Positions 1 to 38,540 of a DNA stretch of 64,000 nucleotides are shown one piece after another. The stretch lies in NCBI GenBank assembly GCA_020053735.1, contig JAGVMP010000009.1, positions 124,001 to 188,000 of the forward strand, in the 5' to 3' direction. The translations under genes were made by a program, and so were the position numbers. Under the pieces are notes generated by a model, which was not told the origin of the DNA, searched no databases, and saw only the letters and a program-made list of their open reading frames with translations. Source of the stretch: Pseudomonadota bacterium. Its GTDB lineage: Bacteria; Pseudomonadota; Gammaproteobacteria; Burkholderiales; Methylophilaceae. Each line of letters opens with the position of its first letter. The first letter of the stretch is position 1.

Positions 1-42
1 CTGAAGCTGGTTATTCATACGTGAAAGCCAATATCCATAAGG
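1..42 (+). repeat. Palindromic repeat family, long form (3' part), in frame in gltX
   Basis: ctgaagctggttattcatacgtgaaagccaatatccataagg; first 30 nt identical to the dnaX copy, then runs into the short-form core ccaatatccataagg. Confidence 0.88.
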
Positions 43-443
43 GTTCCATGGCATCTAATTTGATAAGTGCGCCTGATTTGAAGGCTGTGTTAAATCTGTA
101 TCGTGAACGTGCCAATAACTTGAATCAACTGGCTAACGATGTGGCGTATTTTTATACCCTGCCACAAGCCAGCTCGGCCGATGTAGAAAAGCATATTACG
201 CCAGAAATTATGCCCGCTATGCAAAAACTGCAGCAGCAGCTTACGCATATTGAGTGGACGGCTGAGGCGATTCATCAGGCAATCAATGCAGTGGTGGCTG
301 AATTTGGGCTTAAGTTTCCTAAGCTTGCCATGCCGCTACGCGTGATGCTGACGGGTATTGCACAATCACCCAGTATCGACCAAGTGATGGCTTTATTAGG
401 CCAAAATGAAACCTTAACAAGAATCAACGCATACCTTAAATAA
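3..443 (+). CDS. gltX: Glutamyl-tRNA synthetase, C-terminal part (5' end outside window)
   Basis: C-terminal MPLRVMLTGIAQSPSIDQVMALLGQNETLTRINAYLK is typical of GltX; the frame is open to the window edge at position 3. Confidence 0.92.
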   Translation, partial: EAGYSYVKANIHKGSMASNLISAPDLKAVLNLYRERANNLNQLANDVAYFYTLPQASSADVEKHITPEIMPAMQKLQQQLTHIEWTAEAIHQAINAVVAEFGLKFPKLAMPLRVMLTGIAQSPSIDQVMALLGQNETLTRINAYLK

Positions 444-15558: not shown

Positions 15559-17292
15559 TTAAACAGGTTTTATTGAGTTAGGGATAATTTGCGCTCCTAA
15601 ATCATTCATCAATGCTTTTACAAAGTCATCATTCATAATGGCAGCTTCTGCCCCCGATTGAATCACCGCTTTTTCATTGGCATTTTGCTTAGCGGGTGTG
15701 ACAATTTCTGTGTGTGTATCGCTGGCCACAGCAATATTTAATCGTATTTTGCGACCGAAATAGTCGTTAATGGCATTGGCTAATTTGTCTTGATAACTGG
15801 GGCTGATGAGGTGCTTTTGTGCACTGGCCACGCGTAAATTTATGCTGTGTTCATCGTAACTAACCAATTCACAATTTTGAGCCAGTGCGCGTGCAAGACC
15901 AAGCTTTAGATTTTGTTCGACCAATTTGCGCCAATTGCCATCAAAACTGGCCATGTCTGAAATTGGCACGCTAGAATCCTTATGGGTATTGGTTTCTGGC
16001 GCAGCAGCTTGAATACTAGTGCTGGCTCGTACTGGTTCAGGCGTTGCTTGTTGGTTTAATGGAGCTGCTACTTTTACTGCAGGCGGAGCTACTTTCTCGC
16101 CGTCTTGCGGTGCAAGCGCATTCTTATCTATTGGCGTAACCGCACCTTTTTCTGCTGGCATAAATGCCAACATACGCAATAGCGTCATGGTAAAACCTGC
16201 GTATTCATCTGGCGCAAGGCCAATGTCTCTTCTACCTAAAAGCGCAATTTGGTAATAAAGTTGCACCGTTTCGGCGCTGAGTGTTTGCGCTAAATTCAGT
16301 AGCGCGGCGCGTTCTGGCAAATCGTCAGCAATACTTTGCGGTACGGTTTGTGCAATGGCAATTTGGTGCAGCAAGTTGGCTAAATCATTCAATGCGGCTT
16401 CAAATGACAAGCTACGCGCTTCCATTTGTTTAGCGATTTCGATTATAACGCCACCGCTATTGGCTTTCACGTATGAATAACCAGCTTCAGCTGGTATATT
16501 CTGCGGGGACAACCCTTGCGGTTGCAGGGCAGACAGTATTTCGTATAAATAACTTTGATCAATCGCCCCTAGCATGCTGCGCACTTCTGCCTCGTTCACA
16601 GTTTGGTTACCGTAAGCGATAGCTTGGTCGGTGAGAGACAGCGCATCGCGCATACTGCCTGCCGCTGCGCGCGCAATCAGGTGGATGGCTGTTGGCTCAA
16701 AACTAATCTGTTCTTGGCCAAGTACATGTTTTAAATGTTCCGAAATAGTCGGGCTGGCCATTTGCCGCAAGTTAAATTGCAAACAACGGCTTAGCACGGT
16801 GACAGGTACTTTTTGCGGGTCAGTCGTGCCAAGTATGAATTTAATATGCGCTGGCGGCTCTTCCAGCGTTTTTAGCAGCGCATTAAATGCCTCTTTGGTT
16901 AGCTGGTGTACTTCATCTAGCATGAAAATTTTGAAGCGACCCTGTGTGGGCGCATAAGTGGCTTGCTCGAGCAGCGTGCGCACATCATCAATACCGCGCG
17001 TAGAGGCGGCATTAATCTCAATGTAATCAATAAAACGATCCGCATCAATGCCAGTACAGGCATCACACGCGCCACAAGGTTTGGCGGTGATGCCCGTTTC
17101 GCAATTGAGTGATTTGGCCAAAATACGGGCGAGGGTGGTTTTACCAACGCCACGCGTACCCGTAAACAAATAAGCGTGGTGCAAGCGTTGCTGGTCTAAT
17201 GCGTTGGTGAGCGCACGCACGACGTGGTCTTGCCCTACTAGGTTTTCGAAACTTTTTGGGCGATATTTGCGCGCGAGGACTTGATATGACAT
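15559..17292 (-). CDS. dnaX: DNA polymerase III subunits gamma/tau
   Basis: YQVLARKYRPKSFENLVGQDHVVRALTNAL, Walker A GTRGVGKTTLARILAK; carries an in-frame repeat element. Confidence 0.97.
   Translation of the reverse strand: MSYQVLARKYRPKSFENLVGQDHVVRALTNALDQQRLHHAYLFTGTRGVGKTTLARILAKSLNCETGITAKPCGACDACTGIDADRFIDYIEINAASTRGIDDVRTLLEQATYAPTQGRFKIFMLDEVHQLTKEAFNALLKTLEEPPAHIKFILGTTDPQKVPVTVLSRCLQFNLRQMASPTISEHLKHVLGQEQISFEPTAIHLIARAAAGSMRDALSLTDQAIAYGNQTVNEAEVRSMLGAIDQSYLYEILSALQPQGLSPQNIPAEAGYSYVKANSGGVIIEIAKQMEARSLSFEAALNDLANLLHQIAIAQTVPQSIADDLPERAALLNLAQTLSAETVQLYYQIALLGRRDIGLAPDEYAGFTMTLLRMLAFMPAEKGAVTPIDKNALAPQDGEKVAPPAVKVAAPLNQQATPEPVRASTSIQAAAPETNTHKDSSVPISDMASFDGNWRKLVEQNLKLGLARALAQNCELVSYDEHSINLRVASAQKHLISPSYQDKLANAINDYFGRKIRLNIAVASDTHTEIVTPAKQNANEKAVIQSGAEAAIMNDDFVKALMNDLGAQIIPNSIKPV
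16459..16530 (-). repeat. Palindromic repeat family, long form, in frame in dnaX
   Basis: Minus strand GCCCTGCAACCGCAAGGGTTGTCCCCGCAGAATATACCAGCTGAAGCTGGTTATTCATACGTGAAAGCCAATA; 3 mismatches to the 37815 copy over about 67 nt. Confidence 0.93.
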
Positions 17293-17713: not shown

Positions 17714-17752
17714 GCCTGCCCTGTAGGTCGCATGGATATTGCTTTGCAGGGC
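17714..17752 (-). repeat. Palindromic repeat family, short form, intergenic
   Basis: Minus strand GCCCTGCAAAGCAATATCCATGCGACCTACAGGGCAGGC. Confidence 0.75.
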
Positions 17753-17777
17753 ACTGTTTTTTATACGTAGTTAAAGC

Positions 17778-29484: not shown

Positions 29485-29493
29485 TTTAATCCG

Positions 29494-30612
29494 TTGGCTA
29501 AAACACTTATTATTGCTGCCACCTCAGCGCGGGGTTATGTGCAGGCTGCAGTCGCTTGTGGCTATGCGGTCATCGTGCTAGATGCGTTTATTGATGAAGA
29601 AACCAGGGCGATTGCTAAGCAGACATTTAAATTAAAATTTGATGATTTTGCGTTAGACGCGGTGCATTTTAAACAGATTTTTTCGAGCATTAATTTAGCT
29701 GAAGTGGGTGGCTTTTTGTATGGTAGTTTGTTTGATGACTGCCCAGATGTTCTGGATTGGGTGGCAAAACGGGTGCCAGTCATTGGGAATTCGGCTGATA
29801 TGTTCAAGCAAACCAAGGATTTCAGTTTTTTTGCCTTGTTGGATAGTTTGAATATCGCACACCCTGAAGTGCAGCTCGACTTCCCAGACGATCCTGAACG
29901 TTGGCTTAGCAAACAAATCGGCGGCTGTGGTGGTATGCACATTCAGTCGGCTGGTTTAAAGCTTAAGTCAGATTTTGATAAAACCTATTTGCAACAAGCT
30001 TACTTTCAGGAAAAGTGGGCCGGCACGCCAACCTCTATGCTGTTTGTGGCAGATGGCAACACTGCGCATCTGATTGGCTTTAATCAGCAATTGGTTGCAC
30101 CTAGCAAAAGCTTGCCATATCGTTTTGCTGGCGCTGTCGGCAACGTCGCCCTGCAGCCCAATATCCATAAGGAGTTTGAGCATGCTGCACAGAAGCTCAC
30201 TAGCGCACTGCATTTGTGCGGTATCTGTAGCTTAGACGCGATTATTGATGGTGAAGATGTATGGGTGTTAGAGCTGAATCCACGCCTAAGCGCCACATTT
30301 AACCTGTATGAAAATTTACTGCCATTGCATTTACAAGGCTGTGCAGGTCATTTGCCAAACATGTCGGTTAAAACGAATATCTCACATGCACAATTGATTT
30401 TGTATGCAGAAGTAGTATTGGGTATTCCTAAAAACTTTGCTTGGCCGATCTGGGCGGTAGATATACCAACAGTTGAAAGTGATACATCTGGTGTTAAAAT
30501 TGACCAACATATGCCAATCTGCAGTGTCTTAGCTAGCGCAGAATCAGCAGAGCTGGCGCAAACTTTACTGCTGCTGCGTGCAGAAAAATTAACAGAAATG
30601 CTGAATAAATAA
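29494..30612 (+). CDS. ATP-grasp domain protein of the H4MPT cluster (TTG start)
   Basis: ATP-grasp C-terminal ICSLDAIIDGEDVWVLELNPRLSATFNLYE; lies between mtdB and mch. Confidence 0.8.
   Translation: MAKTLIIAATSARGYVQAAVACGYAVIVLDAFIDEETRAIAKQTFKLKFDDFALDAVHFKQIFSSINLAEVGGFLYGSLFDDCPDVLDWVAKRVPVIGNSADMFKQTKDFSFFALLDSLNIAHPEVQLDFPDDPERWLSKQIGGCGGMHIQSAGLKLKSDFDKTYLQQAYFQEKWAGTPTSMLFVADGNTAHLIGFNQQLVAPSKSLPYRFAGAVGNVALQPNIHKEFEHAAQKLTSALHLCGICSLDAIIDGEDVWVLELNPRLSATFNLYENLLPLHLQGCAGHLPNMSVKTNISHAQLILYAEVVLGIPKNFAWPIWAVDIPTVESDTSGVKIDQHMPICSVLASAESAELAQTLLLLRAEKLTEMLNK
30148..30173 (+). repeat. Palindromic repeat family, short form, in frame in ATP-grasp gene
   Basis: gccctgcagcccaatatccataagga; peptide ALQPNIHK. 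Confidence 0.8.
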
Positions 30613-36731: not shown

Positions 36732-37463
36732 TTATGCGAGTAAAGACAACTGTTGCGCAGTAATTTCGCCGCTATGCAGCGCACTGGCGACTAGCGCACC
36801 CGCCACCCCAAGCTGCTTTAATGCCAATAAATCCTCACTATTTCTTACACCACCAGCCGCAAAAAGATTAGTCGGTTTTTTACGTGCATGGTTAAGCTGC
36901 ATCAAAGTTTGTAAGCGTACGACATCTGGCCCCTTGTTACTGCCCACATGATTGAGCGTCATGCAAATGGTATCGTCTGGCCAATATAAGCCACTTGTAT
37001 GTAATTCTGCTGCACCAAGTTCAACGTTATCTAGCTTATCCAGCGATAGCACGTGCCTGCTCTCGTAGGCATCACTCACTGCCCGATAATCTTGCAAAGC
37101 GTGAACATTTTCACTGCCAAATACCACACGGATATTGGCTTGCGGCGCATATAAAATGCGCGCATTGACATTGCGCACACCGTTATCCACCCACCAAGTG
37201 ATTTGTGGGTACATGTCGCTGAGGAGCTCAATCTTCTCAAAATGGTTGCCAGTGTCTGAAATTGCATCAATATCCGCGATGTAGATGGTGCGAAATGGGT
37301 ATAATTTTAACAAGCCTTCTACAATACTAAAAACATCACTCGAGTCGCTTAAAATGGACTTGATAGGCTGGTAATTGGCGCGTTGTCCGTGCTTAGCATG
37401 CACGACGTGACATTCATCTAACGGGCCTTGTTTTAAATCGATAACGGGAATGACTTGCAACAT
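36732..37463 (-). CDS. HisA-like TIM-barrel protein of the H4MPT/methylofuran cluster
   Basis: VIPVIDLKQG...VVHAKHGQRANYQPIKS...TIYIADIDAISDTG...LFAAGGVRNSEDLLALKQLGVAGALVASALH. Confidence 0.85.
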   Translation of the reverse strand: MLQVIPVIDLKQGPLDECHVVHAKHGQRANYQPIKSILSDSSDVFSIVEGLLKLYPFRTIYIADIDAISDTGNHFEKIELLSDMYPQITWWVDNGVRNVNARILYAPQANIRVVFGSENVHALQDYRAVSDAYESRHVLSLDKLDNVELGAAELHTSGLYWPDDTICMTLNHVGSNKGPDVVRLQTLMQLNHARKKPTNLFAAGGVRNSEDLLALKQLGVAGALVASALHSGEITAQQLSLLA

Positions 37464-38540
37464 CAGCCTTTCGTCACTATGCCAATTAAGAAAATATTTG
37501 TATGCGAGTTTATCACTGGCGGTGGCTTGTGTGATGAAACGCTGCCAGAAAGCCTAGTAAAAGAGGGCACGTTGATACGCGATGCACTACTGCAGGACTT
37601 GAGCGAATTATCATACGAAGTAAGTACTACTTACGATGTGCGTTTCGATGCGCCTGTGCTATGCGCTACTTGCGTTGCGGTTAACAAAAATGACGATGTT
37701 TGGCAGATTTGGCAATTGCAAATGCAGGCCGCCGATGCGGTGTGGTTGATTGCGCCAGAAACCGGCGACATCTTAAAAAAACTTACCCAAATGGCCGAAG
37801 AACCTAAATTGAATGGCCTGCAACCGCAAGGGTTGTCCCCGCAGAATATACCAGCTAAAGCTGGTTATTCGTACGTGAAAGGCCCGCTGGTATTGGGTTG
37901 TGGGACTGCCTCTATTGAAGTCACCAGTAATAAAATGGCCACCTATCTAGCTTTGGAAGCTGCTGGCATCCCTAGCATTCCTACATATAACTTTGAAGAT
38001 TGGCCAAAAAGGCATTGGATTTGGTTGGCAAAACCCAATGACGGAGTGGGTTGCAGCGATACCGCTTGTTTTAATAACCCCGATGATTTAGAAGATTGGA
38101 TTGAAGACAACCACAAGCAAATGACACACGTGATTCAGGCTTTTCAGCCAGGTGAGGCGGCCAGTATTTCGTGCGTCATGCGACACGGAAAAGCACAATT
38201 ATTAAGTTGCAACACTCAACATATAGAGATTAATAATCAAATGCTTAGTTATGCGGGTGGGATGGTCAATGGCATGCGCGATTATTGGCCTCAATTTGAG
38301 TTTATTGCCAACAAAATAGCGCAAATGTTACCTAGCTTGGCAGGTTATGTCGGTATTGATGTAATTGTGGATGATGACGAAATTATTGTGGTGGAAATTA
38401 ACCCACGTCTCACCACCACCTATGCGGGTATGCGCGAATCTATCAGCGCCAACCCAGCTGAGTTGGTTATCAATACGCTGACAAATCCTGATTTTGTATG
38501 GCCCACCTTACAAAGAAATTTAGTGAGTATCGATGTTTAA
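37455..38540 (+). CDS. ATP-grasp protein, tyramine--L-glutamate ligase (MfnD)-like; carries an in-frame repeat
   Basis: KIFVCEFITGGGLCDETLPESLVKEGTLIRDALLQDL; GYVGIDVIVDDDEIIVVEINPRLTTTYAGMR. Confidence 0.8.
   Translation: MQHQPFVTMPIKKIFVCEFITGGGLCDETLPESLVKEGTLIRDALLQDLSELSYEVSTTYDVRFDAPVLCATCVAVNKNDDVWQIWQLQMQAADAVWLIAPETGDILKKLTQMAEEPKLNGLQPQGLSPQNIPAKAGYSYVKGPLVLGCGTASIEVTSNKMATYLALEAAGIPSIPTYNFEDWPKRHWIWLAKPNDGVGCSDTACFNNPDDLEDWIEDNHKQMTHVIQAFQPGEAASISCVMRHGKAQLLSCNTQHIEINNQMLSYAGGMVNGMRDYWPQFEFIANKIAQMLPSLAGYVGIDVIVDDDEIIVVEINPRLTTTYAGMRESISANPAELVINTLTNPDFVWPTLQRNLVSIDV
37815..37883 (+). repeat. Palindromic repeat family, long form, in frame in MfnD-like gene
   Basis: ggcctgcaaccgcaagggttgtccccgcagaatataccagctaaagctggttattcgtacgtgaaaggc. 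Confidence 0.93.

Follow-up and report, generated by a model that had tools for sequence, protein, structure and literature searches.

The window, a stretch of 64,000 nucleotides from a Methylophilaceae genome (G000; 2.44 Mb, 99.99% complete), carries dnaX (DNA polymerase III tau/gamma) on its reverse strand at 15559-17292. The 577-residue product of this open reading frame (ORF) shows the Pfam domains DNA_pol3_delta2, DNAX_ATPase_lid, DNA_pol3_gamma3 and tau_5, and it contains LQPQGLSPQNIPAEAGYSYVKAN where relatives read LQAN. A first-pass annotation had marked a repeat of about 70 nt here, adding about 20 residues and shared with two other genes, and had likened it to the Rickettsia palindromic elements (RPE). 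The repeat is real, at that place and far above chance expectation. A repeat search of the window also bears out the two partners: the dnaX repeat matches 68 nt of an ATP-grasp gene at 96% (37814-37881) and the end of gltX at window position 1 over 33 nt at 100%.

The boundaries of the insertion are given by the closest relative, G003, which is 95% identical in gltX, 98% in hda and 93% in dnaX over the matched parts. Its dnaX (L266) holds an empty site, TTGCAA^GCTAATA (the caret marks the point of insertion; longer stretch TGCCTTGCAA^GCTAATAACGG). Compared with this site, dnaX of G000 has gained exactly 57 bp after CTGCAA, at 16465-16521 on the reverse strand, corresponding to the 19 codons 258-276 (PQGLSPQNIPAEAGYSYVK). 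The estimate of about 20 extra residues thus becomes exactly 19, and the supposed 70-nt element resolves into 57 inserted base pairs and native target sequence on both sides: CTGCAA in 5' (16522-16527, reverse strand) and GCCAATA in 3' (16458-16464, reverse strand). The latter resembles the core of the 37-bp palindrome described below, and its assignment also draws on the consensus of the intergenic copies; both flanks are considered native because G003 reads TTGCAA^GCTAATA. Absence of the segment from other DnaX proteins had been set beforehand as a test, and it is indeed missing from all 32 other betaproteobacterial sequences displayed in the alignment, from the 13 other genomes of the genus for which the site was shown and from E. 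coli tau. A chance or ancestral origin of the dnaX segment is ruled out by the empty sites and the alignments.

At least four in-frame copies are found inside conserved genes of G000, namely dnaX, gltX, an mfnD-like ATP-grasp gene and, in reverse, hda. Each of these genes is exactly 57 bp longer than in G003, and the four boundaries agree within an ambiguity of AA. The element defined from these four filled/empty pairs is CCGCAAGGGTTGTCCCCGCAGAATATACCAGCTRAAGCTGGTTATTCATRCGTGAAA. The 3' part of gltX lies at 1-443 on the forward strand, in an ORF open at the window start; the whole ORF codes for 504 residues with the domains tRNA-synt_1c and Anticodon_2. Positions 1-26 (forward strand) hold the 3' part of the element, the rest being outside the window (contig C9, 123970-124026), and the empty site of G003 is CTGCAA^GCCAATATCC (longer stretch CGCCTGCAA^GCCAATATCCATAAGG). 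About six more extra codons follow the element immediately in gltX (GSMASNLI region, window 28-70); G003 is without them, and the 57 bp do not account for them.

The ATP-grasp gene (37455-38540, forward strand; 361 residues, domains ATP-grasp_3 and preATP-grasp_3) contains the element at 37824-37880 on the forward strand, at a site that reads CTGCAA^AGCCCG when empty in G003 (longer stretch GGCCTGCAA^AGCCCGCTGG). Another genome of the genus, G004, has a degenerate, separate copy at the same codon (L183), and G003 and other genomes read empty there; judged from these sequences, two independent gains are probably the simplest reading. In hda, the element is reversed, and the empty site of G003, in the direction of the element, is GTCTGCGA^CCCGCATGGATATTG. 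The expectation that the genic copies share one common frame therefore fails for this gene. Compared with solved Hda structures, Hda of the genus (L206/L011) has a shorter stretch between the Walker A helix and the Walker B strand, and the 19-residue insert falls there.

Outside the genus, glnE of G021 carries in frame a copy that differs little from the main consensus (...RSMQPQGLSPQNIPAKAGYSYVKDNIKLGRGGIREIEF...). Two further hosts, an LPS-kinase-like (Kdo-kinase-like) ORF (L016) and a YgjP-like metallopeptidase in G002 (L114), are probable assignments made from the filled site. Most calls of genic or intergenic position rest on ORFs and not on annotation. The ORF overlaps at L023 and at L009/L005 were not counted as genic copies, the overlap being judged to involve an ORF end, sequence that precedes the start or a short ORF that lacks support.

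The annotation had also made further copies beyond these genes a test. The genome holds some 25-30 clear copies by BLAST and 31 by covariance model, and the majority lie between genes. Their usual seat is the arm of a commoner 37-bp palindrome, TGCCCTGCAA^GCCAATATCCATGNGGCYTGCAGGGCA, which is entered at CTGCAA; removal of 57 bp from the composite repeat restores a good hairpin. A palindrome of this type without the insert (TGCCCTGCAA.GCAATATCCATGCG..TACAGGGCA) is present in the window at 17717-17753 on the reverse strand. At five orthologous intergenic loci (L004, L005, L012, L013 and L014), G003 has the short palindrome without the 57-bp unit, which identifies the unit as a later insertion into an older repeat. 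The element family is hence not special to coding DNA, most copies being intergenic within the 37-bp palindrome. One copy (L019, 1501-1561) adjoins the 3' end of the RNase P RNA gene, rnpB, in opposite orientation, and parallels the RPE in the RNase P RNA of Rickettsia.

The core of the short palindrome has a distribution of its own. It occurs as CCAATATCCAT at window positions 28, 23322, 30158, 30656 and 32815, and the most over-represented 10-mer of the window is the palindrome core CAATATCCAT, with 8 occurrences vs. 0.18 expected. It is also found inside ORFs, where it is read as LQ.NIH. The ORF region at 29485-30609 has an equal length in relatives with and without the core, as if the core had spread by substitution and not by insertion. 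Could an uptake-sequence-like drive, or gene conversion, have carried the core through the ORFs? A third palindromic repeat, ACAAGGTGAATCAAACTCAYGAAGTGAGTTTGAGAGAGG, is located in the short-palindrome core beside the 57-bp unit, at its right flank (L012, G000:C14:238829; L125, G003:C36), and has more copies in G003.

The element folds into two hairpins, both present as the annotation had drawn them. Hairpin A, CAACC-GCAAG-GGTTG (16510-16524 of the reverse strand in dnaX), shows compensatory change across the copies in all five of its pairs, and the CAA of its 5' arm comes from the target CTGCAA. The second hairpin noted, ACCAGCT-ga-AGCTGGT, is the tip of a 15-bp stem, hairpin B (16470-16505, reverse strand; CGCA GAATA t ACCAGC TGAA GCTGGT TATTC a TACG), which has two bulges, t on one side and a on the other. 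Compensatory change is seen in 9 of its 15 pairs; one pair is broken in the dnaX copy (G to A). The DNA fold of the 57-mer consensus has a z of -5.6.

Among 24 copies of several subfamilies, 14 of the 20 pairs changed on both sides, with 35 double-changed cells vs. 5.6 in shuffles, and the signal is abolished by shifting the pairing register. With 44 copies, the values are 15 of 20 pairs and 144 cells vs. 50.5, in an alignment to the model that biases towards the model; the covariation is RNA-compatible, G-U pairs included. Stems and bulges are the same in the subfamilies, although the letters differ, for example AGACC/GGTCT with CGTG/CACG and AGCCA/TGGCT with CGTGAAATA/TATTTaCACG. No Rfam family matches the element at the gathering score, and two sub-threshold matches were judged to be chance. 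A known RNA family was rejected as a candidate: the Rfam matches obtained were to the RNase P RNA and SRP RNA beside the element.

Nearly all copies have CTGCAA^ or CTRA^ as their left junction, and the main unit reads CTGCAA^CCGC...GTGAAA^. Its ends, CCGCAAGG and CGTGAAA, do not form inverted repeats, and target duplication is absent or limited to the 2-bp AA that makes the boundary ambiguous in all four genes. The units also invade each other. Sister units of the AGCCA/TGGCT subfamily are nested in the hairpin tip of the 57-bp element, as CCAGCTAA^GCCAG...GTCAA^AGCTGG (L021, L022 and L025); at these junctions within the hairpin tip (CTAA^GCCAG...GTCAA^AGCTGG), only AA is shared.

By covariance model, the element is present in 8 of the 15 genomes of the genus, and its structural family in 25 of the 81 Methylophilaceae genomes, covering 8 of 24 genera. 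In other genera, copies are also seen in unrelated palindromes. One of these palindromes has, by eye, the appearance of a CGTC REP (L328). In another genus, a 57-bp unit is seen by eye at the center of a long inverted repeat (L324), and tandem or nested units, palindromes within palindromes, are found at L331 and L250. A phage or plasmid origin was rejected, as no match to the element was found in viral contigs, phages or plasmids.

The dnaX segment is best understood as a copy of a 57-bp mobile element that is small and non-autonomous, recognised by its structure, selective in its sites, and both translated and tolerated where its one open frame allows; a probability of roughly 0.8 is given to this reading. 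The element was gained precisely, prefers its sites, nests, conserves its structure and has spread. By analogy with known systems, an enzyme supplied in trans would recognise it and move it in the form of a folded single strand, of DNA or possibly of RNA. The adenines at the end of the target (CAA or TAA) would pair with internal TTs and so complete hairpin A, to which they belong in the subfamilies examined. Moreover, the two borders look alike, with CAA, TAA or TGA at the left junction and GAA or CAA at the right end of the unit. In IS200/IS605-type elements, the two cleavage sites likewise resemble each other.

Single-strand transposition in the HUH style (IS200/IS605/RAYT), with the enzyme located elsewhere or formerly present, fits best and is proposed tentatively. 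The single-strand step rests on analogy because no Y1_Tnp (PF01797) protein was found in G000. In the genus, PF01797 matches were obtained in only 2 of 15 genomes, four in G004, two of them with in-frame stops, and one in G013. The Y1 transposase ORFs with internal stops at L141 and L143 (G004:C76, about 105-107 kb) occur in the genome that has the degenerate mfnD copy, and are possible remains of a former mobiliser. A bolder proposal is that of an unnamed family of 57-58-bp mobile palindromes across the Methylophilaceae, with a mechanism new for such small DNA: recognised by its fold and with a hairpin completed by the AA of the target, it would invade palindromes and its own tip without a dedicated transposase, and would use a host-specific 'landing pad' palindrome whose core spreads in coding genes without change of length. 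In this full form, the proposal is rather doubtful.

Beyond the insertion itself, the host sites resemble the short palindrome over 16 bp in gltX, 7 bp in dnaX and about 20 bp in hda, a likeness that also allows recombination between short matches. Composite repeats would then donate their 57 bp, by recombination or template switching and without a transposition enzyme, to palindrome-like genes through the micro-homology CTGCAA...GCCAATA. That dnaX, gltX and hda match the short palindrome left and right of the insertion point, also where G003 is empty, speaks for such an exchange, as does the lack of a PF01797 transposase in G000. However, in the mfnD-like gene and in glnE the match is largely to the left side (CTGCAA and ATGCAA), the rnpB copy has AACAA, the nested sister units share only AA and other genera carry copies in unrelated palindromes. 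Compensatory conservation of structure would, furthermore, be unexpected for passively copied DNA, and this explanation is considered unlikely.

An RNA intermediate, in which the transcribed unit is rewritten at matching sites by a reverse transcriptase of the group II intron or retron kind, is quite unlikely. The strong RNA-compatible covariation with its G-U pairs, together with the lack of a Y1-type DNA transposase in G000, speaks for such a route, but the copies have fixed ends and show no poly-A or truncation pattern, and the failure to match an Rfam family at gathering score counts against it as well. Beyond HUH transposition, RNA copying and recombination, the balance of probability goes to some other enzyme.

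Returning to the mobile 57-bp element, its length of 3 x 19 preserves the frame of a host gene. The unit has a single stop-free forward frame (LQPQGLSPQNIPA-AGYS-VK), and one reverse frame is open only with a GA tip. The forward genic copies use the open forward frame, and the reversed hda copy, which has the GA tip, uses the open reverse frame; the frame is kept without a stop in every genic copy. It is proposed that genic copies survive only in a stop-free frame and in a tolerant loop, and that in such places translation of the insert yields an additional, nearly neutral loop. In G000, TAC replaces the usual TGC (Cys to Tyr) in three of the four forward genic copies vs. 1 of 16 others (Fisher p = 0.013), and this change breaks one stem pair. 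The excess suggests selection on the peptide, or possibly shared descent of these copies.

Selection of the peptide or hairpin for a regulatory function in DnaX or Hda is very improbable. Two of the four confirmed genic hosts of G000 act in replication, and intragenic REPs elsewhere have also been reported as concentrated in replication and repair genes (PMC3733652). Nevertheless, the other hosts are gltX, the ATP-grasp gene, glnE and, probably, the Kdo-kinase-like gene and the YgjP peptidase, and the sister species G003 is without the insert. In a model of DnaX (mean pLDDT 74.7, pTM 0.37; usable for local features only), residues 258-276 are mostly coil with a pLDDT of about 56-60, between helices 247-255 and 271-292, and this low-confidence loop is in keeping with a tolerated insertion and likewise argues against exaptation. 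The weakest alternative, removal of the segment from the RNA or its bypass by the ribosome to give a normal DnaX, can draw on the strong hairpins of the coding strand but is hardly credible given the stop-free frame of all genic copies, the reversed hda copy, the intergenic position of most copies and the TAC (Tyr) excess with its hint of peptide selection (the segment stretch in DnaX is LQPQGLSPQNIPAEAGYSYVK).

Among known systems, the miniature elements of the IS200/IS605 type and the REPINs share with the 57-bp element bulged hairpins, insertion 3' of a short fixed sequence and the lack of a clear target duplication. In contrast to IS200/IS605 and REPIN-RAYT systems, G000 has no Y1 transposase and no autonomous partner was found; in contrast to MITEs, terminal inverted repeats are absent. 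Small dispersed repeats (SDRs), structured mobile repeats of about 21-27 bp, were reportedly described in cyanobacteria by Elhai et al. in 2008, with compensatory changes, nesting and site preference, and they are not known to have a transposase. Compared with the SDRs, the likeness lies in these same traits, whereas the present unit measures 57-58 bp, follows a two-hairpin covariance model and belongs to another phylum.

The GTAG and CGTC REPs are also short palindromes and lie for the most part between genes; those inside genes are sometimes in frame, with many of the hosts being replication/repair genes and a few tRNA-synthetase genes (Di Nocera et al. 2013, PMC3733652). The CGTC REPs, including two RPE families, likewise have no dedicated transposase, and their mode of movement is an open question (PMC3733652). 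REPs are, on the contrary, single stems of 20-40 bp tagged GTAG or CGTC (TGTC, CCTC) at one end, whereas the unit has 57 bp, two stems and no tag. More similar to a REP is the short palindrome of 37 bp, although it too lacks the GTAG/CGTC tag. Compared with the GTAG REPs and their Y1-type RAYT, the contrast is again in PF01797, with no match in G000 and matches in 2 of the 15 genomes of the genus.

The closest parallel in behavior is the RPE. In the summary of Delihas (PMC2229807), these measure 105-146 bp and are found in frame in 19 genes and also in tmRNA and RNase P RNA, and a Rickettsia guanylate kinase that carries an RPE is produced and active and shows a changed affinity for its substrate. 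As with the RPE, the palindromic repeats of this family occur in frame in unrelated conserved genes (dnaX, gltX, hda and mfnD-like), between genes and at RNA genes, here next to rnpB and there including RNase P RNA (PMC2229807, PMC10969869). RPEs are, however, single long stem-loops of 105-150 bp with terminal inverted repeats (PMC2229807, PMC10969869), and, compared by description, the unit is set apart from them by its size of 57 bp, its two hairpins without a terminal inverted repeat of its own, its fixed CTGCAA-type target and its Methylophilaceae host. The RPE assignment of the first-pass annotation thus holds for the behavior, with copy number, exact empty sites, covarying palindromic structure and unrelated hosts in its favor, and does not extend to any described RPE or REP family, from which size, ends, two-hairpin architecture and target separate it.

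No relevant description of Methylotenera repeats was found by title in the open-access papers covered, the scope within which the family is called undescribed. Palindromes that lengthen proteins are familiar chiefly from Rickettsia, and the short list of mobile elements that extend functional proteins here gains a well-resolved family in a methanol-eating host. The sister species supply precisely paired filled and empty sites, and a covariance model, nested sister families and a known target are at hand, so that its mobility, its choice of target and the consequences of an added loop for DnaX, Hda and GltX are directly testable. Its hosts are environmental relatives of genera in which some strains have been cultured. 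The element behaves like an RPE or an intragenic REP, yet in size, ends and target it matches no family described so far: it is a variant of this type, not a member.
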